Positions 19,413 to 58,227 of a stretch of 64,000 nt of DNA are shown here, one piece after another; the first letter of the stretch is position 1; the number at the start of each line of letters is the position of its first letter. Under the pieces are notes generated by a model, which did not search any database, had not been told where the DNA came from, and saw nothing but the letters and a program-made list of their open reading frames with translations. Source of the stretch: Terebella lapidaria (lineage: Eukaryota > Annelida > Polychaeta > Terebellida > Terebellidae); the NCBI GenBank assembly GCA_949152475.1, contig OX424569.1, forward strand, positions 29,557,950 through 29,621,949. Direction: 5' to 3'. A program made the translations under genes and the position numbers.

Positions 19413-19811
19413 ATGACCTTGAAACCAACGCGGATAAACACCGACAAAATGACGCGGCATCCTCCGACCTTGACCTTGGTTGTGCCTCCAGATAGAGCCT
19501 ATGGCACGATGCTACAACAGACGAAACGGGTCTACGACCAGCTCTTGGCAGATAAACACACCAAACTGTACAAAAGTCTACTTGAAAGTAAGGCCGCTTA
19601 CGACAATGAATGCACAGAGATGGCCGCTCAGAACAAAGACGACGCTCTGGAGCATGGCGTAAAAGCTCAAAAGCAACTGAATGATTTGTGCGAGGAATAC
19701 AGTAATGAAGTGACGGATCTAAGACGGAATTATCAGGAGAAATTGAATAAAATTTACTCACAACTGGATGAGAAGTGGAAAAAAGATCGATCAAAAGAAA
19801 CGGCGGTGTGA
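19413..19811 (+). CDS. Small helical 'QLLADKH' family protein, copy 1 (unknown function)
   Basis: A 132-residue protein, first of five related genes in the window. After a short basic N-terminus comes the family mark PPTLTLVVPP. A helical region rich in charged and Leu/Ala residues follows: QQTKRVYDQLLADKH, LLESKAAYDNEC, then YQEKLNKIYSQL. It has no signal peptide, membrane segment or catalytic motif, and a single coding exon. A likely acceptor (TTTTTCCATGCAG, ending 19345) lies 67 bases before the ATG, suggesting an intron in the 5' leader. This is the most diverged copy (HPP instead of QPP, AAQNKDDALE for ASKDxDxALE). Its frame is more GC-rich than its surroundings. The long antisense frame 19405-19995 is its shadow. 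Confidence 0.75.
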   Translation: MTLKPTRINTDKMTRHPPTLTLVVPPDRAYGTMLQQTKRVYDQLLADKHTKLYKSLLESKAAYDNECTEMAAQNKDDALEHGVKAQKQLNDLCEEYSNEVTDLRRNYQEKLNKIYSQLDEKWKKDRSKETAV

Positions 19812-19897
19812 ACCCAACAGCATTTTGACATTTTAATTCAACGTCCACAAAATCCAAGTCGATGTTTGGTGAATGGTCGTGTGTTGTGCGCGCACTG

Positions 19898-19903
19898 AAT
19901 AAA
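19898..19903 (+). terminator. Poly(A) signal AATAAA of family copy 1
   Basis: Canonical AATAAA about 87 bases after the stop codon of the gene at 19413-19811, followed by a TG/T-rich stretch, as expected for cleavage and polyadenylation. Confidence 0.55.
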
Positions 19904-20529
19904 CGAGCCAATTTTTGTGCATTCATTTTTGTTTTATGTGGTGGCATTATGATGCAATTGGGTGAACTCGGGCTTTTCATAGCAAACAATGTCAACTTGT
20001 CTGTGATGTTAACTTTTCTGTGATATGCTTTTGCCTTGTGATATACCTAACAAAACGGTTACACTGCACATATAGCGTGTTTACACATCTACATGTATAT
20101 ATGTATTTTAAAAAGACGAAATGCCATAGATAGAATGCCATATAATATACGGACGTATAAAATATACACTTATTTTTTATAGATTGTGTGAATTAAAAAT
20201 ATACGCTGATACTAAACCAGGACGGTTATATTGTATTAGACATAATACAATAACTCATTTATTTACAGCTCGCCCCAGTCAAAATGCCTGTGTGCGAAAG
20301 ACCGTGCGATATTGGTCGCTCAGACAAAACAATATCAGATTTATAGTACTCCAGACACTATTGTGTTACATGTATGTGTGTAAATAAAATATGTTCTTAT
20401 ATAGATGCACAATTTTTTTTCGTCTTCATTCAGAGCACGCAACTGTATAAAGTATATTATGCAAAACGTGTGATGTTTGTGTCATATAGATGAATCAGAC
20501 TGAATTAATATAACTGTACCCATAAATTG

Positions 20530-20700
20530 TGTGTTTGAAAATAGTTTTATATCTTTCAGCAATTGTAGACATTTATTCCCATTTAACGCCTTGCATTGAA
20601 ATACTACACGTATGTTTGTATTCTGAAGGTTCTTCAATACATAAAGCATACATGCAGCGCTAGACTTTTCTGTGTTTTTTTTTCCTTTGAAATATGAAGA
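20530..20700. repeat. Duplicated intergenic block (partner near 9570-9710)
   Basis: 'tatctttcagcaattgtaga', 'tattctgaaggttctt' and 'cttttctgtg' recur in order at about 9588-9690. It is non-coding and joins the left duplicated region with the small-gene cluster, suggesting a shared duplication history or a dispersed repeat. Confidence 0.4.
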
Positions 20701-21268
20701 AGCACAAACAAGAAATCTTTTAGCAAACGAAAAAGAATCGCGACGGTACAATAGTTTGATGTGCTATATTGTACGCGTATGACAATCTACAAAGGGCGTA
20801 TTCAGACACCTTACTAGATCTCAAAATCAACACACACGATTCATGTACATCTACTGCGCGAGCAAAGTCGAACTTACGAAGTTGTACTCTGTTCTGACTA
20901 TTGTTTCAACTAGGGTGCACCGATTTAAAGCGAAAAATATTCTAGCCATTTTGATCACAGCATTGATTACAACCTCTGGAAGATAATTTAATTTCAATGG
21001 ATATATCGAAGCTGGTCATAATTACACGTAACTCGACCAATCTCCACATAATGAGAAATCCAACCACCAGAAACGAACTCGTGAGCATCAAAATCAAAAC
21101 ACTTTACGACAAGTGGGTTGTAATATCTTCGGGCGGTCCTTCGATCCCCGTCCAAGTGTATTACACTTGAAGGTGATTAACTCAATATCAAACTTGACAA
21201 GCGTTTGCATTCGGGATGCAGCAAAGGAAACTCAGACACTTATAAATACAGACAACATGAGATTAAAC

Positions 21269-21661
21269 TCATTTCTGTTTCTGGTCCGACTTGGCTTTCT
21301 CGTCCAATTGTACGTACATCTTATTCAGCTTATCCTGGTAGTCTCTCTTGAGTCCCGTCAGCTCATCGTCATATTCCATACAGAGTTTATTGAGGGCCTC
21401 TTGTGCCCTGACGCCGAATTCAAGGGCCCTGTCCTTGTCCTTGCTCGCCAACTCTGTGCACTTAGCGTCGTACTCCGCCTTTCTCCCCAGCAGAGTCTGG
21501 TAGAGCTTCGCGTGTTTGTCAGCGAGCAGTTGGTCGTACACGAGTTTCGTCTGTTGGAGAGTCATCCCGTACGCCTTGTTGGCTGGTACGACCAGGTTCA
21601 AGGTCGGGGGCTGACTAGCCATATCGTCCGTGTGCATCTTGTGGGGCGATCGGTGCGCCAT
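21269..21661 (-). CDS. Small helical 'QLLADKH' family protein, copy 2 (unknown function)
   Basis: A 130-residue protein on the minus strand, facing copy 1 tail to tail. It starts MAHRSPHKMHTDDM, then QPPTLNLVVP, KLVYDQLLADKHAKLYQTLL, EYDAKCTELASKDKDRALEF and KRDYQDKLNKMYVQLDEK. A putative 5'-leader acceptor (CCATATTTTCAG, exon from about 21722) precedes the ATG by about 60 bases. A TATAAAAG lies close to the ATG but seems too near to be the promoter of a full leader. Two conserved cysteines (AKCTE and KLCME) are shared with the other copies, so a disulphide or metal role is possible but unproven. The plus-strand frame 21113-21805 is a shadow. Confidence 0.78.
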   Translation of the reverse strand: MAHRSPHKMHTDDMASQPPTLNLVVPANKAYGMTLQQTKLVYDQLLADKHAKLYQTLLGRKAEYDAKCTELASKDKDRALEFGVRAQEALNKLCMEYDDELTGLKRDYQDKLNKMYVQLDEKAKSDQKQK

Positions 21662-21984
21662 CTTGCGAATTGGAGCTTTTATAGTCGGTGTTTACTATAT
21701 GAAGACTTCCTGTCGTTGTTACCTGAAAATATGGAACATAGAAATATTTTATGGATGTATTTACACGTCAAATACTCACCAGCAAAACGTGTACATGTAG
21801 TTTGATTAATAAATGTTTTATAAATCACAAAGTAAACTAATATTCGCCGTTGAAAATGTTCCGTTGGTAGTTTTGCAACTATAATATATAATCCTGATTT
21901 CCCGTTGCAAGAACAAGTTGAATTTTCCAGATACAGGGAAATGAATTGCACGGGAAAGAGGTCCAAGTTTCCTAAGTACACACA

Positions 21985-24431: not shown

Positions 24432-26530
24432 GACAATGTTATTTGTTCACCGGAAATCACCAACAAGAAAATAATAAAATAGAATAGAATTTATTCGAAT
24501 CATGAATGTGGAAAATTACATACAGTCAGATAAGTCTTCAATATTTAAGACAATAAACAGAAGATTTGGAACCTCAAACATTAATCGGCCACATATGTTC
24601 CGAAGAGGGAATTTATTGATTGCATACAATCATTCGATCAAAATCGTCTCAGCTTAATAGGTATAAGGCATCATACCACACTAAGATCCTGCATTGGTGG
24701 CAACGATAACGAAAAATAAAAAAAAAAACAAGTCCACAAAATACCTCTATATGACATGATTAGCAAGATCATTACCTTGGAACAAAATAATATCAGATTC
24801 GTGCATAGTCGCCGTTGCAAAACTTTTAAATGTCCCTCGAGTGACAGTTCCGTTCAAATCAGGTGTTTTCTGGCGCGCATCGACACAAGAGCAAGTAGCT
24901 TGTGTACAAAATTTATATTGTTTTGTTTTATAGCCAAACATTACAAAAATTAATTTGCCTTTGCCTGATCAACAAATGCATGTTGATTCACAACACATTT
25001 CTGGGTAGGAAACACTGATATACCACACATTTCGTGGACATTTTTCACCTTTCTCCACAAGATTTATTTTCTCTAAGCCGATTTATAATTGATTTTATTT
25101 TGTAATACTCCAATAGTGTTGTGATCGGTAAGTTCGTTCAAATAGTTCATAATGGCAACGTGTATCTTAAATAAATCTGAATTGCACGATCTTATATATT
25201 GTACTGTAATGCTTGTAGCACATGGACTATCGCTTCGATATCTTCCCCATCCATCGCCGGGTAATCACACGCATGATAATACTACAATAAAATGTTAATT
25301 GTTCCACCCGCAAGGCCACATGGGTAATTACCACAACTGCAAGCATAACAACCTCATACGTTAGCCTCGAGCCGCGAGATAAAACAAATGCATGTGGCAT
25401 TAGGTCAGATATGCTACGTGCAACTAAAAGCTTTAGTACACATGTATTGTAATTTAGGTGTTTTTTTTATTACTGACAATCATATAATAGGAATGTCATT
25501 GGAAATAAGGCATTTACATCGAAAAAGCACATATAAAATACAGTGTACAGTGACACATTATGGATATTTGTCATGATCAAATCTAATTTCTGGTCAATGT
25601 ATCCAAGGTTATGTTTTGCCAAACAGTTACGTGCGCGTGTATATATTGTTTTTGAGTCATTGCCAGAAAATCAGCATCGTCACTGGTTCGAAAAACAGCA
25701 AGATTGGTCGGCCACTTGCCCCCGCACAAAATGGTCACTGTTTTTACATACACATTTTTAGGAAGCTGTATGTCATCTTTCCAACTTGGACCGTCGTATT
25801 GTAACACTGTATGTATCTTGTGTCTGTGTTTCAGACATATATTATAGCTTTATTTGTGTCATATGTTCGGTGTTTGTCGATTTGCCGAAACTCAGATCAG
25901 AACACTGACGGTGAGATCGAGCAACGCCCAGGTAAGTTACAGATTGGCATTCAAATATATTGGCTGTATCTAACTTACTGGTGAATTCTAATTGGTAATT
26001 AGAATGTGCGTTTTTAATTTAGCCTACTGCATGCCTTATGAGGAGAGTTATATAACTTAATATGACCTAATAAGGAGAGTTATATCGTTAAAATAATACT
26101 ACTACAGGAAATCGTTAAATCTAGTCTATAGATAAAAATATCGAGTTATATTGCCGATAATTATTTAATAATACACACACTTATATAATTACAACATTTG
26201 TTGCATGCCTATCGGAATATTCACTCCATTATGGGAAAGCTCAATTTGAAAACATCAAACGTCTGACACGTTCTACCGATTATGTCATTATGTATTTATG
26301 TAGATCCACATTTTTATTATTCGACACAGAACACATTGTTACAAAAGTTGACTGGTTTCTTTCGGCAGAGCACATAGTAATTTTGAAACTTTTTGCGTAA
26401 AACGATAATGTGTGAATAGAGAACTTATCATTGACCAATGTATTCCACCTTACAGGCAACATTCTACAAGATCTGCTATAGTCACTTCTCACTTGAGATA
26501 TACCCCAAAAAGAAGTCAAAACTTGCAAAA

Positions 26531-26938
26531 ATGACTCTACGGTCCCCAGCTAAAATAAACATGGACAAGATGATGCGCCAGCCTCCGACCTTGACCTTGA
26601 TTCTACCGCCGGAAGTGGACTTCGGCGTGACTCTGCAGCAGACGAAACACGTGTACGACCAACTCCTTGCCGACAAACACTCGAAACTCTTCGCTAATTT
26701 ACTCGCTAAAAAGGCCGAATACGATGCCAAGTGTCAAGAACTGGCTGCCAAAGACGTCAACACTGCTATGGAGTACGGCGTTCGCTCGCAGGAGGCTTTA
26801 AATAAGCTCTGCAAGGAGTATGGGGAAGAACTGACCGACCTGCGCAGAGACTACCAAGACAAACTGAACGCCATGTACGGACAGCTGGACGGAGCTAAGA
26901 AAGATCACGTCGATTTCAAGGTTTACTCTCGGAAGTAG
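26531..26938 (+). CDS. Small helical 'QLLADKH' family protein, copy 3 (unknown function)
   Basis: A 135-residue protein from the ATG at 26531, chosen because it aligns with the N-termini of copies 1 and 4 (MTL[KR]). An upstream in-frame ATG at 26438 lies before the acceptor-like TTCCACCTTACAG (ending 26455) and is probably intronic. The family order is intact: MMRQPPTLTLILPPEVDFG, HVYDQLLADKHSKLF, YDAKCQELAAKD, ALNKLCKEYGEEL and YQDKLNAMYGQL. The C-terminus extends a few residues beyond copy 4 (DFKVYSRK). No membrane segment or known domain. The sense frame is clearly richer in G/C at third positions than the flanks. Confidence 0.78.
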   Translation: MTLRSPAKINMDKMMRQPPTLTLILPPEVDFGVTLQQTKHVYDQLLADKHSKLFANLLAKKAEYDAKCQELAAKDVNTAMEYGVRSQEALNKLCKEYGEELTDLRRDYQDKLNAMYGQLDGAKKDHVDFKVYSRK

Positions 26939-27143: not shown

Positions 27144-27222
27144 GTTTGAACTGGCGGAAGAACACCAGAAAGCAGTCGACCTTCGGTCTCGTGCTCTCTG
27201 GTATTCTTCCGCCAGTTCAAAC
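27144..27222. repeat. Foldback hairpin between family copies 3 and 4
   Basis: GTTTGAACTGGCGGAAGAA and its complement enclose a short loop. The arms continue with ACCAGA against TCTGGT, for a stem of about 26 bases with one mismatch. The element is stand-alone and GC-richer than the surroundings. Confidence 0.55.
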
Positions 27223-27322
27223 TCGATCTTTCCCGTGTGCTGGAAAACACACTCACCTAGTTTTGTTTTTATCACATGCTATGAATTTATGATTCTGAAA
27301 TATTTGGCAACCCAACCCCTGT

Positions 27323-28230
27323 AAATTAAAGTACTAGTATAGTGAAAATATGATGTGAATTTATATGAAAGATCTCATTGATCTGAGCAAAATGGTATTT
27401 ACGGCATGTAAATATCACAATCCATTCAAAAGTTATAGCACTTTAAAGACTGAAATCGGCAAATTTGCTTTTTCAAAACAATTTAGCTAATTAGTATGCA
27501 AATGAGATATTCATGACATCATCGGGGGAAGTTATTTTAATTAGGTACTTTGATTTGTATTTTTCATTCATTTAATGTTATGATTATTCATCAAAACTTA
27601 TTATATACAGATTTCAAGATGAATAATCAGTGTTTTCACTTTTTCTGTTGTTGTCAGGGTAACCAGTGACCTGGTATGGCCCATAGCAACCATGGTTGCT
27701 AGGGCCAGAAACCCACTTGGAACAGAGTATGCACGAATAAAAATGGTGCCAACTTGAGATCTATAATAATTTTTTTCATAAATAATCGACAGAAAGTCTG
27801 TGGATAGACTGACTTGGCAGTTAATGGCCATGGCAACCATGGGTAACTACGGCTATAGGGAACGACTGGTAACCATAGCAACAGTACAGTTTGTGCGGAT
27901 ATTGACTATGTATGGTACATAATAATATGCACTAGTCAGATCGTCAGAACCTTCAATAAGAATCATTATATCATGGCTTGAAATATCCTAATTAAAATTT
28001 GTTCCCCTCGTGACGTCATGAATTCTCATTAGCATCTAATTTGCATATTAATGAGTTGCTAGAACTTTTCAAGTGGCTTCTGTAATGTAGTGCCGGAATG
28101 GCAGTTTCAAATGGCTGTAACTTTTGAACGGATAGAGATATTGATATACCGTAAAGACCATTTTGCTCAGATCAATGAGATCTTTCATATAACAAAACAT
28201 CATGTTTTCACTTTACTAGTACTTTAAAGT
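27323..28230. mobile_element. Long-TIR foldback element (about 0.9 kb)
   Basis: The ends are complementary for roughly 200-240 bases. Left 'ttaaagtactagtatagtga', 'gaaagatctcattgatctga' and 'gcaaaatggtatttacgg' are mirrored at 28110-28230, and 'atgcaaatgag' with 'catgacatcat' is mirrored at 27990-28050. The centre carries further inverted 'agcaaccatgg' motifs. No transposase frame is seen, so it is a non-autonomous foldback or MITE-type element. The target duplication is not clear. Confidence 0.6.
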
Positions 28231-29805: not shown

Positions 29806-30183
29806 ATGACACTCAAGTCGCCATCAAAACTAAATACCGACCGCATGTTGCGTCAACCGCCGACCTTGACCTTGATCCTACCACCGGAAGTGGACTACGG
29901 CATGACCCTCCAGCAGACGAAACTCGTGTACGACCAACTGCTCGCTGACAAACACGCGAAGTTGTACCAGACCCTGCTTGAGAGGAAGGCGGACTACGAC
30001 GCTAAGTGTACAGACTTGGCGAGCAAGGACATGGACAAGGCGCTAGAGTTTGGCGTCAGGGCGCAGGAGGCCATAAACAACTTGTGCTCGGTGTTCAGTC
30101 GCGAGGTGATGGACTTGAGAAGAGACTACCAGGATAAGTTGAATAAAATGTACACACAGCTTGAACAAACAGTAAAATCATAA
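29806..30183 (+). CDS. Small helical 'QLLADKH' family protein, copy 4 (unknown function)
   Basis: A 125-residue protein beginning MTLKSPSKLNTDRMLRQPP. It continues LTLILPPEVDYG, KLVYDQLLADKHAKLYQTLL, YDAKCTDLASKDMDKALEFG, INNLCSVFSREV and YQDKLNKMYTQLEQ. It is very close to copy 5, including the unusual NNLCSVFSRE segment that replaces KLC.EY in the others, so copies 4 and 5 are sisters. It carries a strong G/C third-position bias compatible with high expression. The function is unknown; the predicted architecture is a short proline-bearing N-terminus followed by two or three amphipathic helices. Confidence 0.8.
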   Translation: MTLKSPSKLNTDRMLRQPPTLTLILPPEVDYGMTLQQTKLVYDQLLADKHAKLYQTLLERKADYDAKCTDLASKDMDKALEFGVRAQEAINNLCSVFSREVMDLRRDYQDKLNKMYTQLEQTVKS

Positions 30184-34694: not shown

Positions 34695-37600
34695 ATGTCG
34701 GGTTACGGCAGCACGGGGACATCGAACCCGTTGGAGAAATCTGGAGCCTCGGATGGCACACACAGAGCAACGTCTCCGTTGCCAGGGGAGACAACGGAGC
34801 AGAACGTGGGGCAGGCGGCCACACGTAAGCAACGTACGTCCATTACGTACGGTGCCCCTGAAGGTCACGCGAATTCTGACAGAACCAGGCACATATCGAA
34901 GAGGTGAGTTTCAGACACATTAATTTGTTTTTGGCGATATGAATGTTTCAGTGGATGATTGTACCAGAAACCCATACGTGTATACGTGTACGACGCACTA
35001 CCTTAAGCATAAGACGAACACTTAGTCCATTAAACTGTCAGTGTTTCTGGCGAGATTAGTTATTCGATGTTTCGAAATATAAGCGATCTTCGTACCTAAC
35101 GTTATCTTTATCACGAACACGTTTTCTGTTTCTGGGTTTCAATTGGCGTCTTGTTGCAGCTGTTCGATTTAAGTATGTACCCATGGTTTATATGGTTCAG
35201 TTATTGATGTACGCACGGCAGCTCCCATATATTTCTGAGGCATTTAAACGCGCTGACGCCTTTGAATATTGAAGCATATGGAGAAGACACGGATAAGTTT
35301 ATGTCTTCTGACCCTGAATGTATCCTTCGACTCGGCAGAAACAATTTATGTGTAAATCGTTAAGTCGCTGGCGTGGGATTGATGCATTCAGCGAATTATT
35401 CGATGACCGTAATTCCATTGTCGAAATCGTCCTGCAATTTACCATACTTTCCATGTAGAAGTGACCGAACTGGATTATAACCATGCCAATTAGGCGGACA
35501 CGTAAAATAGAACCGACTTGTTCACAAGGATAAACTGTTAAATTAACATAGAATATCTTGGATCAGCACATGTTGTATGTGGCATTTAAGCTTCCAATAA
35601 CCAACATATCAGATGCCTAAGTGTAAGGAGTAATTCGTTATGGAAGACTATATGTACATACCGTTGACTCGCGCAAAGAAGTGAGTGGATGTGACGTCAT
35701 CATATTACTACCGTAACTTCGTGTATGTGATAGTGGAATATGATGGAAAAAAATTGCGATAATGTACGGTGATCCAGTGAGCCAGGACATAATCATACAT
35801 TTTTTTTCTTATATGTATTGTTTTTCGCTTCACATTGTTTGAAAATAAATTTCAAAGCTAATTTAAAACCAATTTTATGTGGGGCAAATATATGTTCGGG
35901 TCATTCTGTTTTTATTTGAAATGAATTTACTGTTTTTCATTCCAGATCGGATGTGGAATCGCAGGCGGGGGATTTGTTTAGTCTTGAAGATGATGCTATT
36001 CCAAGTACAGTAAACTCTCATTTTTATGCAACAGGAAGTTCTACTATAAACCCATTATTTGGACAAATTGCACCATTACATCTCAGATTCAATAGTCATT
36101 GATTCGACTAGATCTTCTACATCCGCGTGTAATCCGCTACCTCTGATATGGTCTTGCCTGAGAAGTACAAGGTCACTTCAGGGAATGTTTTTTTATCTGA
36201 TTCATTACTTATCACGCACATTATTTCTTGCATTTTTTAAAAATTTCATTTGAACTTTTTGAAAATAACTTTTTTCGAGTCTCGACAGGAAGACAACTAT
36301 ATCAACCTATGTGATGAATCGGCTATTTCGGATTTAGTAAATGTTTTGGTTTGATTTGATTTGACGTATTAGCCCTACATCCGTGAAAAAAGCTATTCTA
36401 ACTGGCCCCGGACGCAAATTACTTGTCAAGAATGTTTAACATCGCATAACTTGTATTTACATCGAGAAAGGGAAACGATATGGAAACATTTCTTTCTATA
36501 ATAACATATTTTAAGCCACTGGGATGGCTAGGCGTCAGAGGGATACGACATACGCGGTCCTCAGCGATCGGAAAACGTCTAGTTTTGTTTCTTCCCAGGC
36601 GAACACTGCCACGTGATCGAGGATGACCTGCCAAAACTGGACAAGAAAGCCCGGTGTAAACTTGTTACTGCCAGCGTGTTGTGTCTCATCTTCATGACCG
36701 CGGAGATTGTTGGTAGGTGAATTAAATACTTGGCACACATGCAATAAAATAGGTAATGGATGGAATAAAATCACAAAATTGGAAGCTGCACATGTTCAAC
36801 TAGTCGATATATTAACCCATAATCAATTATTTGGACATACTAGTAGGGTAGGCTGTAGCATATTTCAACTGAGGGAATAGATACATGTATCTGTGACTGG
36901 AAATCTGGCTTATATTGTGTGAAATTGCGAATGAATGAAGTAAAATTATCACTTAAGATACATTTGTCTTTATTAAAGTGGAATAATCGGTTTTTAGTTT
37001 TCTCGTTGAAAGTGATCAACAGCTGTTCCCAGAGCAGCTGTACAGTGCAAAAGTTCCAATGCGCACACGAACTTGTCTAAATATGACATTGAAAATCGGA
37101 TTTTAAAGCTGCTGCCTTCGAATGTATGCAATATTTTTTTCAAAACCAATTTTTCGTTAAACACATCTAATGCAAAATAACAAAAAGTGTGCTCAATGAT
37201 TCTGACGATCACAGTACAGTTAGTGCCCGTTTTAGTGCCCATTTTGTACCGGTTTTGTAAATAAACAAACGAAGTGTATCCATCAAACCCGAATGTAAAC
37301 AAATGCTCAAATCACGCTTAAAAGTCCACATCGAGTACATTTTCCAGTTCGTATGTGCATATATAGAGTAGTTGTGAGAAAATAATCAGTGATATACCAT
37401 GATGTGCGTGGAATTGTCAGTCTATCTCGCACGTCTATGCTTTGTTTACATCTGCGTGTGATGGATACAGTTCCTGTACTTACGCTAGAACCGCCTGTTC
37501 AAATGAGCAAAATTTCCCTGAGGACTGGTCATTTTCATTACTTTTGATGTGAGTATGTTTCATTCAATTAGTTTAGCATGTTTAATATAAAAAAACAGTT

Positions 37601-40600
37601 TTCAAAAAATATTGACTGGTTTCGAAGGCAGCTGCTTTAAAAATAGTTTCGCACGGAACAGGTCCCATGCAGTGATGCAACATTAACAAAAATAGCTGAA
37701 AATGTAGGAAAAATACACAGCCCTATCACTTGAAATCCGTATATGTATTGTATATTAGAGTGATGGAACCCCAAATATTCAGTTCGATTCTTTTGTGTTG
37801 CAAATAACGACAAAGATCATGTCTTTGTTTACAATTCGTTCACATCGTGCGTTTTTATAGTATGTTCAAACTCCACTACTGGGTCATCCGGACGTATTTT
37901 GGGGGTTGTACCGGTGCTATATCATCTAATATATGATATCCATTCGATTGATAACGAATTTCAGAAACCGATTATTCCACTTTAAAACCGATTATTCCAC
38001 ATACACACATGACAATTCTCAGGATGTGATAATATTCATTGTTTTCGCTCAGTTATTAAGCAGGTATGCGATATTGATCATATAACAGCACAAAGTGGTT
38101 ATTTTCCCTGAATGCAGCAAATATCCACTCGTTGAGTATCGCTACACGTTTTAACTATATATTTTAATATGCTTTTCAGGCGGCGTTCTCGCGAACAGCC
38201 TGGCGTTGGCGACAGATGCGGCGCATTTGTTGACGGATTTCGCCAGTTTTATGATCAGCCTTTTCGCTATCTACCTGGCGGCTCGTCCGGCTACGAAACA
38301 GATGAGTTTTGGCTGGCACCGGGCAGGTATGTTACAGGTTTTACCCAGCTATAACTTTGGTTGACGAAGCAGTTGCGTAGCTGAAGATATAACATTGGTA
38401 GATGGAACAGGCGCGTGTCCAGATGGAGTGATAACTTTGATAGAAGTAATATTTTGGTATATGAAAAAAAGGTATGTAGCTAGATACATAACTGTAACGA
38501 GAGCACATGCGTAGTTGGTTTTATATTTTCGGTAGATGGAGCAGGTGCGTAGCTAGATATATACTCCTGGTAGATGGAGAAGGTGAATAGCAAGAGTTAT
38601 CATTTCGATAGGTGGAGCAAATACATCTTCCTAGCTAGATACATAACAATGATATATACAGCAGATGCGTAGCTAGAGCTATATTTCTGCAAGATGGAGC
38701 AGGTGCGTAACTAGGTTACAGTGTACTTAGGAAAAATAATGGTATCGTATGTACATAAATGGAGATAACTGTTTTATTATGGTAAGTGGACAGCTATAAA
38801 TAATTGACGAATCAAATGTAGGCATAGTGTATGCATAGCTTGAGAGGGATTGTATAATTAACAGTTTATGTATCGTGTTTCATTTTTTCTTCCGTCATAT
38901 CCGGCATACTTGTTATGTTCTGTATCAATATGATAAAATATGAATATTACTGCACCGCTGTATCACCACAAAATCATAAATTTTCCATTTCAGAAGTGAT
39001 GGGGGCCCTTATATCGGTATTGTTTATATGGGTGGTGACCGGTATTCTGGTGTACATGGCTGCGGAGAGAGTGATGTCAGGCGACTATGAAATTGACGCT
39101 ATGGTCATGTTAATTATTGCAGCCATAGGGATTGGCTTCAATATCATGTGAGTTACTTATAATTCTCGAAATCAGTAAAGATATTCTATTCAAAAAAGGA
39201 ATTCAAAACAATTACTCAGATGAAATACCTGAAAGCATGTGTATGCGTATAGTTACTGTGCATTCCATATTCTTTTCCATTTTTAACACATTTTCAGAAT
39301 GCTAGCTACACTCCACGATACTCACGGGCATTCGCATTCCCATGGCCACAGTCACGGCGGTGTCACCGGAAAACCCAGCCAGAAACTAGCGAAAAACCCC
39401 GACGCATTCAAAGTAAGCGTCGAAACATCCAACGGAAATTACTCCCCGGAAGGAAGCGTAGTTTACAACTGCGTCGACTCGGAGGAAGTCAAATTATTGG
39501 ACTCGAGCGAGAGCGATTTCTCTGGAGACAACCGCACGAATATCAACGTACGCGCAGCGTTTATTCACGTTCTGGGCGATTTGCTACAAAGTGCCGGGGT
39601 TTTCGTGGCAGCCTTGATTATATATTTTAAGGTACAGTCTTCTTGTCCGATAATACTTAACTCAATATACTCATATCACATCATGTGCTATCATATACAT
39701 TGACGTTTGAAGTAAAAATTCGTTCGTACATTCGTTGTAAATAGCTATAGTTCAATTCAAGTTCCAGAATAAATTATAGTAACATTAAGGAAATACATAA
39801 CTATAAAACCATGAATTCCATTTCAGCCTGAGTATAAGCTAGCAGATCCAATCTGTACGTTTCTGTTCTCCGTGCTGGTGCTATTCACAACTATAACAAT
39901 TCTGCGGGATACACTCAATGTCTTGATGGAAGGTAAAATATATCAACATTATTAGATACATTGGTAACTGATATGTATGCACATGTTATACATGTATAGT
40001 TGCTATCGAACTATGTTATCAGAGTTAAGTGAACATGGATAGGTGCTATCAGTAAGATAACAGTACACTTTTTGTTGTATACATCGCGAGACCTGAGTTA
40101 GCACATACTCATATTAGTGAAGAAACAATCGAGTCGTATAAGAACTAGACGTCAAGGCCTGAAGATGCCTTGGAGGCATTTCGGTGTTAGGACTAATTTA
40201 TAATATTTATAACATATTTACCATGGGCTCTACGACACACTGTTTCCAAGATATCGACGAAAAAAAAAGTCAACTCAGTAAAAAAAATTTGAGGTCGAGG
40301 TCAAAGTTAACCCATAATACCCCATAGACATGTTTGTCTGGTGCCACGAGTCCGAAAATAACGTCCGTTTCGCTCTACGACGCACCGTTTCCGAGATATC
40401 GACGAAAACGAAAAATGCTGACTCGGCGAAAAAGTTTCAGGTCAAGGTAAAACTTCATCCATAATAACCTTAAGACATGTTTGTCTAGTGCCACAAGTGC
40501 GAAATTAACGTCCGTTTCGCTCTACGACGCACCGTTTCCGAGATATCGACGAAAACGAAAAATGCTGACTCGGCAGAAAAAAGTCAAGGTCAAAGTCAAA

Positions 40601-42165
40601 GGTCATCCATAATACCCCGTAGACATGTTTGTCTAGTGCCACGAGTCAGAAAATAACGTACGTTTCGCTCTACGACGCACCGTTTCCGAGATATCGACGA
40701 AAACGAAAAATGCTGACTCGGCAGAAAAAAGTCAAGGTCAAGGTCAAAGGTCATCCATAATACCCCGTAGACATGTTTGTCTAGTGCCACGAGTCAGAAA
40801 ATAACGTACGTTTCGCTCTACGACGCACCGTTTCCGAGATATGCAGGAAACCTAAAGGATGGCTGGGCGAAAACTCTTCCGACCTCTAGGTCAAAGGTCG
40901 TTTGACGGATTGATCCCAAAATCAATAGGGTTCTTCCATGTTGATATATGAACCTCCATGCAAAGTTTTGCAGCCATTGCCTACATACTATTTGAGTTAT
41001 CGTGCGGAAACAAAGTCCAGAAAACAACATTGATTTCATCCTCACGGACCTCACGGACCTCGGATGAGGCTGAAAACCATAGGATTCTTCCACATAATAT
41101 GTCTGACCAATGCTGAAAATTCGGCGAAGATACATCGAGGCAAACTAAAGTTATCGGTCGGAAACCAAAACGGCGAAAAAAAAAACAAAACAAAAAAACA
41201 AAACAAATTCTGCTCAAACCATGAAGGCATTTCTTCCGAAATGCCTTAATTATCTGGCAACATCAGTGCTGCATACATTTCAAAATTATACTACACTTTT
41301 TATTCCATACCTTTTTGGCCTTAGTATTTAAAAAACATAAATTCTCTGGAAATCTCAACAATTTTTGACAATTTCTTCAAATTTAACACGAAAGTAAACT
41401 TATCTCTATGATTGTAACGTAATCTCGAATTGTCACAAACCAAACATTTGATTGGTCTTGGATAATATCTCCGATGGTATACTCGACCGAACTTGTTTTT
41501 CTCGCTGTTTCTGAATTGAATGGTTGTGATCATTTCTTTCGTGCAAAAACTATTTTCAGCGACGTATATGTTCCCCAATTGCAGTGTATACCTATATTTA
41601 CATGCATGTACGTACAATGGTTAACAGTTTAACCCTTTACTCCCCAGGTGCTCCGCGAGGGGTGTCCTTCAGTGAAGTAAAGGACAGTCTGTCCAGTATT
41701 CCTGGAGTTCTGGAGTTGCACAACCTCCGACTCTGGTCGCTCACTACATCTAGGACCGCGGTGGCGGTGCATCTGGCAGTGGGTAGGCTGACCGAGAGGG
41801 GGCGTTGGGGGGAGGGAATGGTTAATTATATTGTCATCAATGAACTTAAGAACGTCTAATTGATAAGACGTTCTAATCAATTAGACGTATAAGATATTGC
41901 TCTGCTTTGACATCATGCGAATTGTCATTGATATCGCGAGAATGGCTATATAACTTAATTTTGAAAACATTTTTTTACTCGTTATTTTTTTTATCACGCC
42001 CTCTTCTCCCCCACCACAGCGAAAGATTCCGACCACCAGAAGATCTCGAAGAAGGCGGGTGCCCTTCTCCGTGAGAAGTTCGGAATCAATGAGTGCACAG
42101 TCCAGACTGAACAGTTCGTGGACGCCATGAGGGACTGTACACAGTGTCAGCACCCGGTCGATTGA
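34695..42165 (+). CDS. Zinc transporter, ZnT/SLC30A2-3-4-8 type (cation diffusion facilitator)
   Basis: Nine exons join in frame to 467 residues: 34695-34903, 35946-36004, 36599-36712, 38180-38326, 38994-39147, 39298-39631, 39827-39932, 41648-41782 and 42020-42165. The protein would move Zn2+ out of the cytosol into vesicles in exchange for H+. Visible marks are an N-terminal HCH motif (residues 92-94), typical of the ZnT2/3/4/8 group, and the first zinc-site pair HLLTD in TM2 (His143, Asp147). A histidine-rich TM4-TM5 loop ([16 protein letters not shown], about 234-249) precedes the second pair, HVLGD in TM5 (His318, Asp322). The C-terminal cytosolic domain ends CTQCQHPVD. Six membrane segments fit the family. 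The acidic insert between the His loop and TM5 is longer than in vertebrate ZnT8. The exon 2 donor (A|GTACAG) is the least certain junction; it was chosen because it alone keeps phase into HCH. Confidence 0.92.
36973..37986. mobile_element. TIR element in intron 3 of the zinc transporter
   Basis: Left end 'ttaaagtggaataatcggtt' is mirrored at the right by 'aaaccgattattccacttta' (37964-37984). The interior contains 'ttcgaaggcagctgctttaa' and its complement. About 1 kb, no transposase frame. Part of the interior is homologous to 31310-31540 in inverted orientation. Confidence 0.5.
38385..38720. repeat. Degenerate intronic minisatellite (about 60-base units)
   Basis: Repeats of 'tagatggagcaggtgcgtag' with 'ctagatatataac' variants in intron 4 of the zinc transporter. 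Divergent units, non-coding. Confidence 0.5.
40225..40850 (+). repeat. 148-bp tandem repeat in intron 7 of the zinc transporter
   Basis: 'tttccgagatatcgacgaaa' recurs at about 40386, 40534 and 40682, and its first half near 40830, a period of 148 bases. A diverged first unit starts near 40225. Units include 'gtttgtctagtgccacgagt' and 'gtcaaggtcaaaggtcatcc'. The open frame 40596-40790 on the minus strand merely reads through the repeat. Confidence 0.75.
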
Positions 42166-47300: not shown

Positions 47301-47308
47301 TTTCAAAG

Positions 47309-50210
47309 ATGGAAAAGTTATCAGGGAAACTTACAAAATCCCTGGAAAATGTACTTGAGTTCCTGGCGCCACTCGCCAGTGGGGTCAGCCTGAAAGATCT
47401 CTTTCTCAGCCTGGTTTCCATAGCGATAATATTGCTGGGGGTGGGGCACATGGTGGCTACCCACCATCTACTGCCAGCCAGAGAGTACTGGGACGCGGAA
47501 CTTGAAGGGGCGCTCGGAGAAATTCGTAACTCTTCGACTTTGGTAGCAGGTAATAGTAGTAGATGTTGTCTCATTTTTAATTTATTTCTAAAAAAATTGT
47601 CACGATTTCCAAAGGCACTTAGGGTAATCTATTTGCTGTGTACGATATTGAAAGCTGAAATAATACCCGTATGTGTACGAAGCAAATAGCGAAAGAAATA
47701 CGCGAAAAATTGTAATTTCTGCCAATTAAGGTGAAATGTTGGTAATAGCAATATAAACCACACGTACCTGATATGCGCATTCCACATAAATATGTATTTG
47801 ACACTCATAGGTGATGAAAGGTATAGCCAAGTGTCAGTATTTTTAGAAAACACATGTACCAAACAGGCCTACCCCTCCTCTAATTTCGAGCATTTTCGCT
47901 ATCACAGTATGAAAACGGCGGTTTTATTGTTTCCTAATGGGATAAAAGACAACTGTAAGCCAGGTTTGTGGCAAGGAGATATCAATACTGTCATTTGCAA
48001 CCCAAAACATTTTCAAATTGTCATACAAATCGGTCTACATACACATATTTGTTTTGCTGTACGTAGCAAATGTTAACTGTACGCAGCAAACCAATGTATA
48101 TAGACTTGACTGTTGATAATTTCGAGTCTTTTGTAGAATATGGTGAGAACGAAATTGAGCCTTAATAAACAAAAAGAGGAGTGATATTAGAAAAATGTAA
48201 TATACCTTTCTGAGGTCACACCCGTCGAAGTGTGTTTGTTACTAGATATCATGTATCCCTCACCCAAATACACCACGTACTCTGCCCACAAATGCTGACA
48301 ACTACTGACACAAGAGACGAAAGTATTTTTCAAATGAAATCCCAGAGAATATCCACGATTCGACAGTGAAATGTATGTATAATTGGGTTCATGATCACAT
48401 TAGTCGACATTGGATTGCTGCGTACAGTTAACATTTGCTGCGTACGGCAAAAACAATATGTGTATGTAGACCGATTTGTATGACTAATTGACGATGTTTG
48501 AGTTGTAAATGACGGAATTAATATCTTTCTGCCACAAACTTGGTTTACTGTTATATTTTGTCCCGTTAAGAAACAATTAAAAGGTCCGTTCGCAAAAAGA
48601 CAGTAGCGAAATTGGGTGAATTTAGAAGGGGGTAGGCCTGCTTGGTACATATTTTTTTTTCTGGGAATAATGATACTTGGCTATAACTTATTTCACCTAT
48701 GAGTACCTAATACGTATTTATGTGGAATGCACATATTAGGAACTGTGGTTTTCATCGTTATTACCAACATTTCACCATAATTGGCAGAACTTACACTTTT
48801 TTGGAATATTTCTTTTGCTATTTGCTTCGTACACATACGGGTATTCTATTGGCTTTCAATATCGTACGCAGCAAATAGATTACCCTTAGTGAAAGCATTG
48901 AGCTCAATTCAATCAAAATGATATTTGTTCTTTAAAAAATGATAAATTGTTCGGTATCAACGTTCTTTAGTTGTATTTGTATATTTGTTTTTTCCATCAC
49001 TTTCTCATAAAGTCTTTTTATATTGGGTGCAATGAGGTATTGCCATGAGGTATTGCCATGAGGTATTGCGAATGTCTCCTTGTACAGTGACTAGACAAAA
49101 TTATCCAATAAAGCAAGTGATATGTGTAATAATGTATACAATGCTATCACGGTTCCATAGTTAGTGTCTTGTATGTATTTGATCTTCTTCCTTACACATT
49201 TCTGCGGACAGATGACACCAGTGTCGCAGACTATTTACAGCAGAAAGTCCGCGTGCTCTGTATGGTCATGTCCAGTCGTGAGACGCTCTGGTCACGTGCT
49301 GTCCACGTGAACAACACGTGGGGACGTCGCTGCACTAGGCTAATATTCATGACAGATTCCGAGGATAAAGACTTCCCAACAGCAGTCAGTATTCGTAACT
49401 CCTCTGCTCGACAATTTCACACACAGAAAGTCTTCGAAAGTCTGGATTATGTTTACGACCATCATTTCAAAGACGCTGATTGGTTCTTGAAGTGTGATGA
49501 CGACACTTACGTCATAATGGAAAACCTACGCTATTTCCTCCACGACAAGATCCCAAGCGAGGCTGCGTTTTTCGGACAACACTTCCGCAACACGCGGCGA
49601 GTTCATTATTTCACAGGGGGTGCGGGTTACATTATAAGTAGAAAGGCGCTGAAAATGTTCAGAAACAGGGATCTCCCAATATGCAAATCAACTTGGGAAG
49701 GAGCAAATGAGGATGTTCGTACGAGTGAATGTTTGAGCCAACTAGGGGCTCAGATGGGCCATTCACTGGACGATTTGGCTAGAACTCGATTCCACGCCTT
49801 CCCACCAGGGGTGCACATTTCTGGGGAATTTCCAGCTTGGTACAGGTTTCGAAATGTTCTTGGAGTACGGAAGGTAAGTGCCGCAGTAGCCTACTAGTGT
49901 TTTCGCTCAATATTTGCTCACCAGAAACCAGCACTACGTTTCAACATTTCATTGTTATTGAAGACAAAATTTAGGACCTAAAGATTATATAACAACATGA
50001 TTTTAAACGTTATGTTGTTGCTCTCACTGTCTCATTGCCTCAAGTGTTGTGTAATCGTGCTGTCTGTTGCAGGGGAAGGATTCCATATCTCCATACGCTA
50101 TTAGCTTCCACAAGCTTGATTCACCCGAGTCCATGTACTTGTTGGAGTATTTTGTTTACTCTCTGCGACCGGTTGGTGTACAATTTGGACCACAGTTCAA
50201 TCCACAATAA
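47309..50210 (+). CDS. Core 1 beta-1,3-galactosyltransferase-like enzyme (glycosyltransferase family 31)
   Basis: Three exons join in frame: 47309-47549, 49212-49873 and 50073-50210, giving 346 residues, close to the family's usual 360. C1GALT1-type enzymes are Golgi type II membrane proteins that add Gal to GalNAc-Ser/Thr to form core 1 O-glycans. Visible: a short cytosolic N-terminus, a signal anchor (about 28-50, LFLSLVSIAIILLGVG) and a stem. The catalytic domain follows, with VLCMVMSSRE, TWGRRC, the metal/UDP-binding DDD in FLKCDDDTYV (176-178), HYFTGGAGYIIS (212-223), EDVRTSECL and a C-terminal SMYLLEYFVYSLRPVG. Donors are CAG|GTAATA and AAG|GTAAGT, and acceptors GGACAG and TTGCAG. Exon 1 overlaps no conserved catalytic part, so its start rests on the anchor and frame. 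Specificity within family 31 is inferred. Intron 1 holds a large inverted repeat. Confidence 0.9.
47616..48891. mobile_element. Large inverted-repeat element in intron 1 of the glycosyltransferase
   Basis: Ends 'cacttagggtaatctatttg' (left) and the complement of 'cactaagggtaatctatttg' (right) begin arms of about 450 bases that match across 47616-48075 and 48420-48891. Shared landmarks are 'gtacgaagcaaatag', 'tggtaatagc' and 'gtaggcctg'. The centre has further 'gtacgcagcaaa' inversions. No transposase frame. CACT ends with 'aagg' and 'aaag' flanks hint at a 4-bp duplication, one base off. Confidence 0.6.
49029..49070 (+). repeat. Short tandem repeat upstream of exon 2 of the glycosyltransferase
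   Basis: Three copies of 'atgaggtattgcc', about 140 bases before the exon 2 acceptor. Confidence 0.5.
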
Positions 50211-52184: not shown

Positions 52185-52657
52185 ACAGTAAACACCAGGC
52201 TATTTCACCAGGCTATTTCAAAACGTGTTCACTTATAGGAACAAGTCCTTATATCCGGACACAAGAACACTCCGTTTATTCATATATAAGGCCACCAATA
52301 CACTGATGGGCCTAAGTGTGGGCCTAATTAAATCCTTGGCGCAATTAATTATGTCCGTTTGAGTGACACACAATTTCATGTAGGTCTATAACAAGACCGG
52401 AAGACCAGAAGACTATATATTCGAGATTAAAAGGCTGCGCGTGGTAGCGGAGGTACGTGCTACACGTGTTCAAGTTGCGTCATTTTTCGCAAATTGTAAT
52501 CATCGAGATGCAAAATGTCCCTATATGTGGGTCAGATGTTTTGGAGGCAATTTCTAAACAAGTTCACATATAAGGACAATTGGACATGTTCTTATACCCC
52601 GATATAAGGACATGCTCACATATAAGGACATGTCCTTATATGTACGTCAATACGGTA
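52185..52657 (+). mobile_element. 'TATAAGGACATGTCC' element, copy 1 (left end eroded)
   Basis: Repeats of 'acatataaggacatgtcc' and a right end 'cgtcaatacggta'. The interior ('gtgacacacaattt', 'taggtctataac') is the reverse complement of 54023-54555. The left end is diverged ('tacagtaaac'). Confidence 0.6.
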
Positions 52658-52739
52658 TGCCAGGAGTGCTCATACTATGATTCAATGCATAACGTGAAAT
52701 TTCGTGCCCAGTTATGACTGTTATCATTTTATAAATATA

Positions 52740-53168
52740 AAATCGGTGATAACTCTGAGGTGATAGTTAAAAGCGGGGTGGAAATTATAAACGGGGTGAA
52801 AATTATGAGATGGGAACTATAAACGGGTGGAAATTATAAACGGGTTGATAATTCGGAGGCGATATTTATAGACGAGGTTGAAATTATAAACGTGGTGATA
52901 ATTCTGAGGTGGGAATTATAGACGGGGTGGAAATTATAAACGAGATGATAAGTCGGAGGTGATAATTAAAGACGGGGTGGAAATTATAAACGTGGTAACA
53001 AGTCTGAGGTGGTAAATATAGACGGGTGGAAATTATAAACGGGATGGAAATTATGAGGTGGTAATTATAGACTAGGTGGATATTATAAATGCGATGATAA
53101 TTCTGAGGTGATAATTATAGACGGGGTGAGAAATGTACGAACGTTAGTAGCAGTAGTGAGCTACCGTA
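52740..53168 (-). repeat. Minisatellite arm ending in a TACGGTAGC terminus
   Basis: About 30-base degenerate repeats of 'gacggggtggaaattataaa' and 'gaggtgataattat', finishing with 'gagctaccgta'. It matches the right arm of the complete element at 53505-54950, so it is probably the right part of a truncated relative. Confidence 0.6.
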
Positions 53169-53504
53169 CTGATCACACTATATCCATATTCGGAAATTTC
53201 GAAAGTTTGGTCCCCCTATGGAAAAATTATCAGGTACGCCACTGTCCCTTTCCATGTAACCACTCTTACTTTTGGGGAAGTACATGTGAGTGCCACATTT
53301 CCATGAAATCACGAACAATCGCACGATAGATGCGAGAACTTTGGCAAGAAGTGTCACCCAGCCAGACCATTTTTCGATTGATTAAGGCCGGGCGATAGCC
53401 CGGCATGTCATTCAATGTGGCGTAATGTCTGTGTCGTGGGTGACTTGGAAGGCTCGCCGTCAGTCAAAAAAGGCAAGTGTTTTCTGTGCATTTTATGGTT
53501 AACT

Positions 53505-54950
53505 TACGGTGGCTCATTACCGCCAATTATGTTCGTGTATTTCTCACCCCATTTATAATTACCACCTCATAATATTCACCGCGTTTATAATTTCCACCTA
53601 GTCATAATTATCACCTCAGAATTATCACCGCGTTTAGAATTTCCAGCCGTTTATAATTATCACCTCACAATTTTCACCCCGTTTATAATTTACACCCCGT
53701 TCATAATTATCACCTCAGAATTATCACCGCGTTTATAATTTCCACCCCGTTTATAATTATCACCTCACCATTTTCACCCCGTTTATAATTGACACCCCGT
53801 TCATAATTATCACCTTAGAATTATCACCGCGTTTATAATTTCCACCCCGTTTATAATAATCACCTCACAATTTTCACCCCGTTTATAATTTACACCCCGT
53901 CTATAATTAACACCTCAGAATTATCACCGAGTTTATAATTATGATTTGGTCGCAATCATTACTAGGTACAGAATTTCAATTGGTGCATTGAGTCTTAGTA
54001 TGAACACTCTTGGTATTCTGTGTACCGTATTGACGCGCATATAAGGACATGTCCTCATTATATATGAGCACTTCCTTATATCCGGACATAAGAACATGTC
54101 CTTATGAGTACTTTTTTCAGATACTGCCTGTTAAACATCTGACCCACATATAAGGACATTTTGCATGTCGATGATTATAAGTTGTGAAATATGACGCAAC
54201 TAGAACACATATAGCACGTACCACTACGTATACCATATTCAGCATATCAATCTCGAATATTCTTGTGGTCTTGAAATTAAATTGTATTCTTGTTGAATGT
54301 ATGTGTTATAGACCTACAGGGAATTGTGTGTCACTCAAAGGGACACAATTAATTGCGCCAATAATTTAATTAGGCCCCAATTCTTCAGTTTATAGTAGTG
54401 CATATAGTGTCCTTATATATGAATAAATGGGGTGTTTTATGTCTGGATAAAAGGCCGTCTTCTTATAAGTGAACATGTTTTGAATTCCCGATATATTGTG
54501 AAAATGCACAAATCCACATATAAGGACCTGTCCTTATATGCGCTTCAATACGGTAGCTTCAGAGGTGTTTCCATAAGCATCTTGTTGCTATTGGGCTGCA
54601 TATGTTCATGAAGTGAGGTGATAATTATAAACGGGGTGGAAATTTTAAACGCGGTGATAATTATAGATGGGGTGGATATTTTGAACTCGATGAATATTGT
54701 GAGGTGATAATTATAGACGGGGTGGAATTTATGAACGCGGTGATAATTTTGAGGTGGTAATTATAGCTGGGGTGGATATTTTAAACTCGGTGGATATTGT
54801 GAGGTGATAATTATAGACGGGGTGGAAATTTTAAACGCGGTGATAATTATAGATGGGGTGGAAATTATAAACGCGGTGAATATTGTGAGGTGATAAATAT
54901 AGACGGGGTGAGAAATGCACGAATATAATTGGCGGTAATAAGCCACCGTA
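53505..54950. mobile_element. Complete TACGG-ended element with minisatellite arms
   Basis: Terminal inverted repeats of about 46 bases (TACGGTGGCTCATTACCGCC left, complement TACGGTGGCTTATTACCGCC right) are flanked by the perfect 6-bp duplication TTAACT. Inside, the left arm repeats 'cacctcacaattttcacccc' and 'gtttataat', and the right arm repeats the complement. The middle holds a 'TATAAGGACA' element. No transposase frame is seen. The superfamily is not assigned. Confidence 0.75.
54023..54555 (-). mobile_element. 'TATAAGGACATGTCC' element, copy 2, nested
   Basis: Ends TACCGTATTGACGCGCATAT and the complement of TACCGTATTGAAGCGCATAT. The interior is inverted relative to copy 1 at 52185-52657. 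It lies between the two minisatellite arms of the 53505 element. No clear target duplication. Confidence 0.6.
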
Positions 54951-55422: not shown

Positions 55423-55547
55423 GGCCCAAGTATCATATTCTGCGCCTTCCTCTATATTCAATAAGGATTAAAAAGGTGACAGACGGATTAAATAGCATTC
55501 ATTTAGTGGCCGAGTAGTATTAAGGCGCAGCGTATGATACTTGGGCC
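55423..55547. mobile_element. hAT-type MITE, copy 3
   Basis: Same family, oriented like copy 2, flanked by the perfect 8-bp duplication AAAGAAAC. Confidence 0.85.
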
Positions 55548-55995
55548 AAAGAAACTTGCAAACTAGGTGTTTTAAGTTGGACATTCATTTGCTACGCGTA
55601 AAAACATTTACTCGAAGGAGAAAACATTTGCTACACGAACACTTGTGAAAAATGTCAGGTTTGAGAGCGTTTTGCTCTTGAGAACTGACTTTTTGCCGAT
55701 TATTCATGAGTATAGCTCCTATGACCCTTAGGTGTTTGTAAAACATATAAAGACATCGGGTAAACCTATAAAGACATATGCTACTTCCGGGAATCAGGTG
55801 ATGATTATCATATTTTATTAATATTATCACAAAAATTCATGGTTTATCCCATTTTATCCCAATATCAATGGGGTTAATGGCGACATTCTCAGACACACTA
55901 GTGGGATAAAGGCAGTTTCTTATACACAAAATGGATTGTTGGGGCGGTGGGGGGACGCCCCTCTCTGACACACTTGTTGGGGGTAAGGGCTAAAT

Positions 55996-56120
55996 GGCCC
56001 AAGTACCGTACACTGCTCCTTAATACTACTCGTCCACTGAAATTATACCATTTAATCCGTCTCGCACATTTTTAATCCTTAATGAATATAGAGAAAGGCG
56101 CAGGATATGATACTTGGGCC
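55996..56120. mobile_element. hAT-type MITE, copy 4
   Basis: Same family, oriented like copy 1, flanked by the perfect 8-bp duplication GGCTAAAT. It is nearly identical in sequence to copy 1. Confidence 0.85.
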
Positions 56121-56224
56121 GGCTAAATATTCATCTATATTTATGCATTAGGGATGACATTTCCAGAATGGAGATTCATCGTGATAGATGGAATTGCATT
56201 GCTTTCTCATTTGTAGTCAAATGT

Positions 56225-57540
56225 GTACGATGGGGGGGGGGGGGGGGATTTTGATACCAAGTGTTTCTTTCAATACCATGAAAGCAATACCATATTTCAA
56301 TATAGGTTACCTTACCTATGCTTCGATAACCTAATGGCATAGCGTTGCGTCTGTTGTGCGTCGTCCCTCCACATATCGTCCACTTTAAAGTTACTTTAAA
56401 GCTAAAGGTAAATCTTTCTGAAATTTTGCAACACATTCCTGAAATGAATTAGAGTTATTGTTTTTACTTTTTTCAGATTTTCTGAAATGGCCATTATCAA
56501 CGAGAATTTTTTTTTTCAATTTGACGATCGTTTTCTCAAAATCCGTTCAGAATATTAGTTTTCAAAATCATGAATACAATTTCCCTTATGTATCTTTGAG
56601 ACGTGTATAAGATACATCACTTACATACAGTCACATTCAAATGTGAAGTAATATATACTGATTTCAGTGGTGACCTTGAAGCTGGCTTTCAGTGACTTTT
56701 GAGGTACAAAAAGGTCTAGCGACATGGCCAAGCTAACAGAAGAGGTATGACATTTCGTGCATGACTAATTGTATTTCAACCAAAATGCGCTATCATCACC
56801 CAGGGTCGACAATTTTAAAGTCAGCAGCTACAATAATCAAATTTTGTGACGTTTCCAATACTCTTACCGACCCAATCCGCTTTTCAAAAAAATATTGAAC
56901 ACAATATCATGCATCATAGGTTTCAGATAATGGATAAAGTTTGGAATGTCGGTAACTGCAAAGAATATCAAAGTCGACAAAAAAGGTCAAAAACACACCC
57001 CATCATTATATTCCACCTCGTTGTATGACTGATGGTCGCACGGAATCTTCATAGCTGGTCAAGGTAAAAACATTCACCACCATGGCCCTGGTATACCATA
57101 TTCAACACCACATCGTAAAACCGCTTTTCCTCAAATTCCTCAAATGCTGTTGAGGAATATCACTAAGAGATTGTACTGGGTTAATTGAAGTAAAACTTTG
57201 ATACTTTGGACCTCAAGATCACTGAAAATTGAAACTACATTCATATCTATGATATTTTTCCATCAATATTTTTTATTTTTCAGGCCCTTTTAACGCCAGG
57301 GGCCGAAAATTAAAGGTTCACCAGCTGAAATCGCCAATTTGTAAAATTTCTGAGGAGTTATCATTGCGAAACTACCTACTGAAGACCCTTTCAAAGAAAT
57401 GTAAAATATAATGATGAAGCTTTGAAACTACACTGTGCGTGTAAGTATCATGAGATACTAAATTTGACATGTAAAAGTGCCGCCAGATTGAACCAAAATG
57501 ACACTCTGAGAGATTACCCGATCAACTCACACGTCTATTG
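56225..57540 (+). repeat. Poly-G tract and dispersed CGTCGT-type repeat, third copy
   Basis: Poly-G at about 56231-56247, then 'taggttaccttacctatgct', 'ataacctaatggcatagcgt', 'ctttaaagttactttaaag' and 'aatctttctgaaattttgc', matching the blocks at 42.75 and 16.1 kb. The remainder is AT-rich and gene-free. Confidence 0.5.
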
Positions 57541-57837
57541 TTTTTTTTTGTTTCGTTTTTTAAATTAAAAGAAAAAATGAAAAAAAAAATCTTGCCGCTC
57601 ATGATTCACTTTTATTGAACTCGTTTACACGTGAATGCATGTTGTTGGAAACTTGACACTAGGAGTTACATGTAGCATGTAGGATATGTAGCTACATATA
57701 AATACTGTTATGGACCTTGGAGAACAAAATCAGGTAATTTCCATATCCCACACAATCACACATACAGCAAAATTGTTTTTGTGTGGTAAATAGTTTGTTC
57801 TTGATATCAGCTCCAATACAATGCTCGGTGAGAGATG

Positions 57838-58227
57838 TCACTGTGGCGGTGTATCGGAGTCCGTCGGTGATTCATTCTGTTCATCTTTCGCTTGCTTAGC
57901 GTCCAACTCGAGTTGCTCGTACAGTTTCCCCAGTTTCGCCTGGTAGTCTCTCCTCAAGTCCACCAACTCCCGACTGAACACCGAGCACAAGTTGTTTATG
58001 GCCTCCTGCGCCCTGACGCCAAACTCTAACGCCGTGTCGATGTCCTTGCTCGCCAAGTCTGTACACTTAGCGTCGTACTCCGCCTTCCTCTCAAGCAGAG
58101 TTTGGTACAACTTCGAGTGTTTGTCAGCGAGCAGTTGGTCGTACACGAGTTTCGTCTGCTGGAGGGTCATACCATAGTCTACTTCCGGTGGTAAGATCAA
58201 GGTTAAGGTCGGAGGCTGACGAAACAT
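57838..58227 (-). CDS. Small helical 'QLLADKH' family protein, copy 5, N-terminus altered (unknown function)
   Basis: A 129-residue protein from the ATG at 58227, which corresponds to the internal Met (about residue 14) of the other copies. The body is intact: FRQPPTLTLILPPEVDYG, KLVYDQLLADKHSKLYQTLL, YDAKCTDLASKDIDTALEFG, INNLCSVFSREL and YQAKLGKLYEQLEL. It then has a longer acidic tail (KDEQNESPTDSDTPPQ). In the same frame upstream, RINTVN still resembles the family N-terminus, but a TGA at 58248-58246 cuts it off from another ATG at 58275. A strong acceptor (polypyrimidine tract then TTTCAG) places the exon start at about 58289. It lies about 28 kb from its sister copy 4 with two unrelated genes between. 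Confidence 0.75.
   Translation of the reverse strand: MFRQPPTLTLILPPEVDYGMTLQQTKLVYDQLLADKHSKLYQTLLERKAEYDAKCTDLASKDIDTALEFGVRAQEAINNLCSVFSRELVDLRRDYQAKLGKLYEQLELDAKQAKDEQNESPTDSDTPPQ

Follow-up and report, generated by a model that had tools for sequence, protein, structure and literature searches.

Clusters of local duplicates with conversion in the core are an already known pattern, and a literature search combining gene conversion, lack of introns, tandem duplication and annelids listed papers on other genes. The cluster presented here, which is real and of this ordinary kind, lies in a 64,000-nucleotide stretch of the genome of Terebella lapidaria (assembly GCA_949152475.1, contig OX424569.1, positions 29,557,950–29,621,949, forward strand; hereafter the window, by whose numbering all positions are given). 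It consists of five genes, c1 to c5 in order of position (Table 1), which are best explained as products of local duplication in an unnamed family whose members encode a small soluble protein; a literature search by family peptide strings and names yielded no paper on this family. The one relative with an organism name is P0004, hypothetical protein LSH36_160g02003 of the annelid Paralvinella palmiformis, which resembles the window copies at E 5.2e-47 (58% identical, with 98% of the query aligned) and has the PPTLTL, VYDQLL and DYQ-K motifs in common with them.

An earlier reading of the DNA (the sequence-only reading) had proposed five intact frames of 125–135 residues on mixed strands, and all of these were confirmed where it had placed them. 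The open frame of c3 has a further ATG upstream, at 26438, and in c5 the first 13 residues have no usable equivalent because an in-frame TGA directly precedes its start. The other four copies are 70, 67, 87, and 61% identical to c4 in protein sequence, and with c2 as the query the others match at E 1.0e-52 to 5.4e-44, which rules out chance likeness. A six-frame protein search of the 761.6-Mb genome (438 contigs) using c2 alone as the query (E ≤ 0.001, eight candidates scored) returned five matches, all of them window copies falling within 39 kb; at the sensitivity of this one search, which might miss a diverged or intron-split paralogue, the genome contains a single cluster. A local tblastn search of the window with the relatives and the five copies as queries detected no further family remnant better than E 0.002, and a match of P0030 to 7527–7721 at E 0.002 was taken as chance. 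The presence of only five copies in one place in the genome argues against a transposon or viral origin, and no mobile-element family was found among ten window frames run through Pfam, which was the sole mobile-element check of the window. Searches for tRNA genes and Rfam families at gathering scores gave nothing.

Profile searches with 5, 21, and 34 rows retrieved 20, 33, and 12 proteins, respectively, amounting to 37 different relatives (P0001–P0037), several of which are fragments. The 21-row alignment (A2) excludes P0017–P0020, the 34-row alignment (A3) excludes P0017–P0020, P0027, P0032, P0036, and P0037, and the 31-row tree leaves out P0017–P0020 and P0031–P0037. Membership was defined by a significant profile match over the hairpin together with the L-QTK-VYDQLL and DYQ-K motifs, and the window copies belong by this definition; c1 has NYQEK where the family has DYQ-K. 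Since some of the relatives are merely 35–38% identical, the idea of a lineage-specific family had to be given up, and the family appears to be old and spread beyond this lineage. As for the proposed lineage-specific expansion, the tree places the five copies on one side of a branch, which fits a single origin, though with weak support (69/0; 72% of 200 bootstrap trees), and the multiplication into five is perhaps lineage-specific. That the expansion is "active" was not borne out. The grouping of c4 with c5 is firm (97/93).

In agreement with the sequence-only reading, no named family was recognized for these proteins. A Pfam scan of the five copies gave no family above its cut-off, and scans of the 21 and 34 family members gave weak matches only, the best (E 0.00061) being that of one member to DUF3220. 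There is weak likeness to FAM184 (PF15665; best E 0.009), for which c1 and c4 scored 16.1 and 16.0 bits against a cut-off of 32.7 and no match was listed for c2, c3, and c5; to Rootletin (PF15035; best E 0.054), for which the window copies scored 13.9 bits against a cut-off of 36; and to Apolipoprotein (PF01442; best E 0.00091). At E ≤ 0.1, FAM184 and Apolipoprotein were each matched by 3 of the 34 members. Sequence searches of the PDB reached E 0.15 with the 5-row profile and 0.45 with the 34-row profile, and scans of viral contigs and genome contigs with A2 gave 66 and 87 pattern matches, none of which was confirmed.

Among the motifs quoted for the five copies, VYDQLLADKH is indeed invariant and the others vary: c2 reads QPPTLNL in place of (Q/H)PPTLTL, c3 reads AMEYGVRSQEA in place of ALEFGVR.QEA, and c1 deviates with YDNEC..MA.QNKD and ALEHGVKAQKQ. 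Both cysteines that had been called invariant are so within the five copies; across the 21 rows of A2 this is true of C68 alone, C94 being present only in the five copies and P0001, and A3 has no invariant column.

To describe selection on the copies, a codon model (GY+F3X4) was fitted to the 112 gap-free codons of the five genes, giving a ratio of nonsynonymous to synonymous rates (omega) of 0.115 with a log likelihood of −1395.6, compared with −1480.3 for a null model that sets omega to 1 and kappa to 2. Pairwise NG86 estimates of omega were 0.10–0.26 in the five pairs with a defined synonymous distance and undefined, through saturation of that distance, in the remaining five. The third-position GC content of the copies is 0.52–0.73 vs. 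0.29–0.46 for the overall GC content of the 2-kb blocks of the window. Codon evolution of this kind indicates purifying selection, and the five copies are apparently working genes, or were until lately; the earlier view of them as constrained genes and not pseudogenes is upheld.

Two AlphaFold2 models were calculated. That of c4, from the 21-row alignment, has helices at residues 32–74 and 76–124 with a mean predicted local distance difference test score (pLDDT) of 87.7; the one from the 34-row alignment, headed by P0011, has helices at 35–77 and 83–133 with a mean of 87.6. Both models are predicted two-helix hairpins, in line with the helical body that had been foreseen, in which an extended, proline-containing N-terminal segment (PPTLTL...R.Y) leads into two long helices that fold back against each other. 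In the P0011 model, residues 21–30 and 31–40 reach pLDDT values of 94 and 96. Per-residue conservation was scored over c4 and 16 relatives (17 rows). At 14 of the 19 positions from 35 to 53, the residue is conserved in 85% or more of the rows, and the other residues conserved to this degree are scattered up to position 123. When helix 1 was divided by face, two adjacent sectors were the most conserved (0.84 and 0.85, vs. 0.49–0.69 elsewhere). A membrane span is unlikely, as evidenced by the lack in any of the five copies of a 19-residue stretch above a hydropathy of 0.61. Foldseek with the two models gave no match at E ≤ 0.001, and VIA-align with one model returned generic hairpins; the designed homo-oligomer 5j0l and the BAR protein 3caz, at 9 and 11% identity, had no significant Foldseek match.

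The ends of the protein are more variable. In many relatives a Trp lies close to where helix 2 ends, and some have a C-terminal CKVYPHK tail. A Trp after DYQ-K is usual and not defining: of the 30 relatives with DYQ-K or DYE-K, 23 have it and 7 do not; the CKVYPHK-type C-terminus, found in 8 of 37 relatives, is likewise not a defining feature but one of a subgroup. Within the cluster, c1 alone has a Trp near its C-terminus (EKWK) and lacks the tail, and c3 alone has an apparent remnant of the tail (KVYSRK), without the Trp, which is also absent from c2, c4, and c5. P0004 retains both a C-terminal Trp and a PCQVYPHK tail, whereas Trp and a CKVYPHK tail occur together in none of the five copies. 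Different features of the ancestral ends would have been lost from different copies, which may therefore differ in the partners that they bind.

With respect to function, we read the protein as a subunit of an oligomeric cytosolic scaffold because helix 1 is conserved at its start, the extended N-terminus is ordered and some relatives share a conserved short tail, and give this reading an even chance. The hairpin would oligomerize and serve a larger cytosolic assembly as its scaffold or adaptor subunit; we infer this since the degree of conservation at residues 35–53 seems to exceed the need of an isolated two-helix hairpin. An extended N-terminal segment, a hairpin and a conserved short tail are also features of proteins that decorate doublet microtubules, and the protein could instead be structural in cilia or the sperm axoneme, in which case the duplicates would be tied to particular tissues or kinds of cilia, a possibility that we consider unlikely. 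It is quite improbable that the protein curves membranes or binds lipid in the manner of BAR, apolipoprotein or perilipin proteins, given that Foldseek returned no significant match and that the models have two long helices, whereas a BAR domain is a three-helix crescent dimer. Most doubtful is an extended version of the scaffold reading in which an old animal family builds an oligomer whose roles were split here among the five copies, turning a homo-oligomer into a hetero-oligomer, with ectopic conversion matching the interface of two partners; the loss of different N-terminal, Trp and tail elements by the copies would be part of such a history.

Copies c4 and c5 are inverted, 28 kb apart and separated by two unrelated genes, and share a stretch (Table 1) whose likeness lies within the frame or at most 14 bases beyond it. 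Among all copies, DNA likeness is confined to the frames or to at most 18 bases beyond them (blastn, E ≤ 1e-5). In ungapped 30-base steps, c4 and c5 agree at 26–30 of 30 positions from the inner Met to +270, and then at 22, 15, and 7–11; upstream the values are 5–16, the 16 belonging to the step directly before the inner Met and being the one departure from chance level outside the frame. No gapped blastn match was found between the flanks at E ≤ 1e-5. Further comparisons were restricted to the 112 gap-free codons. Where both copies encode the same residue, they use the same codon in 59 of 63 cases within the core (codons 21–89) vs. 18 of 32 outside it (Fisher P = 2.7e-5, with the boundary picked after looking), and the longest run of common variable sites is 35 (permutation P = 0.0015, or approximately 0.015 when corrected for ten pairs).

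The simplest reading of this patch, and in our judgment probably the right one, is gene conversion, which would have kept the middle parts of c4 and c5 alike; it is favored because a plain duplication with such silent identity should leave alignable flanks, and none were found. The patch might instead stem from codon-level selection or from a regulatory element in the frame, and it does span most of the conserved part of the protein. Third positions in that region are not conserved between c4 and c1, for example (5–7 of 14 per codon block), which makes this explanation improbable. The main alternative to conversion is that some or all copies are intronless retrocopies of an mRNA and not DNA duplicates. 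All five are uninterrupted by an intron, their flanks lack similarity, and P0018, P0019, P0020, and P0034 end at a spot resembling the end of an exon. We retain this rival because of an A-rich stretch in c5, where an AATAAA at +221 is followed at +277 by 17 A in 20 bases; as many A occur in 2.5% of 450-base stretches drawn at random from the window; c4 has 14 A in 20 at +256, which 15.9% of random stretches reach. The other three copies show no such stretch (10–11 of 20), flanking direct repeats are unremarkable (0 to 10 bases, with 34% of random pairs reaching 10), and the five lie within 39 kb, whereas retrocopies usually scatter. Moreover, c4 and c5 have no untranslated stretches in common; if either had been retrocopied from the other, it would have carried these along. 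On balance, retroposition is unlikely, and conversion between c4 and c5 remains the preferred reading.

The four relatives that end early stop shortly past VYDQLL-DK(H/Q), with letters there that are compatible with a splice donor; this suggests, from protein letters only, that other lineages have an intron after this motif. Acceptor-like sites were seen 61–67 bases before c1, c2, and c5 begin, and GTGAGT donor-like words, read by eye, occur farther upstream in c1 and c2; these signals lie at 19225–19346 (+), 21722–21779 (−), and 58289 (−). The acceptor rule gives approximately 0.6 chance sites per 400 bases of one strand (0.29 for YAG only), finds none upstream of c3 and c4, and puts the c5 site out of line with those of c1 and c2 when counted from the inner Met. 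There is at most a hint here of a shared intron in the 5′-untranslated region.

Table 1. Positions of the five family members, the c4/c5 shared stretch and the intervening genes (aa, amino acids; bp, base pairs).
Feature	Position	Strand	Length	Description
c1	19413..19811	+	132 aa	Intact frame
c2	21269..21661	-	130 aa	Intact frame
c3	26531..26938	+	135 aa	Intact frame
c4	29806..30183	+	125 aa	Intact frame
c5	57838..58227	-	129 aa	Begins at inner methionine (Met)
Shared stretch, c4 side	29831..30133	+	303 bp	92% DNA identity; middle is the proposed conversion tract
Shared stretch, c5 side	57939..58241	-	303 bp	92% DNA identity
SLC30A-type zinc-transporter gene	36646..42156	+		Unrelated, between c1–c4 and c5; span of exon-like matches
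Fringe/C1GALT1-like glycosyltransferase frame	49133..49894	+		Unrelated, between c1–c4 and c5; PF02434, E 8.2e-15

The span of the SLC30A-type gene is made up of seven exon-like matches to a ZnT query sequence, and one of its frames matches PF01545 at 26.9 bits (cut-off 26.6). A possible signal-anchor exon of the glycosyltransferase gene, without a Pfam match, may lie at 47300–47686 (+), giving a gene span of 47300–49894. Elsewhere in the window, two PAN-domain frames identified by Pfam at 1928–3869 (−) adjoin a Thr/Ser-rich frame with 60-base repeats at 813–1502, and together these are perhaps one gene for an extracellular protein. A large inverted repeat (52217–54484; 78% over 992 columns) contains a 50-base minisatellite in its arms, and tandem arrays with 134- and 148-base units at 13949–16105 and 40227–40842 contain AAGGTCA words. 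AT-rich arrays with units of approximately 20 bases, such as GTATTTAATATTAAGTACGC, occupy 60042–61443, within the 2-kb block whose GC content (0.29) is the lowest in the window. Near c3, at 27144–28227, there are a 79-base palindrome and an inverted pair (27326–27545 and 27987–28227, 74% identical), which are unrelated to the gene family.

What the locus flags is a conserved protein family for which no name, Pfam model or solved relative was found, and its interest rests on this spread, unnamed family and not on the cluster itself. The value of the compact five-copy cluster is that it lets the conserved core of the protein be separated from its variable ends.

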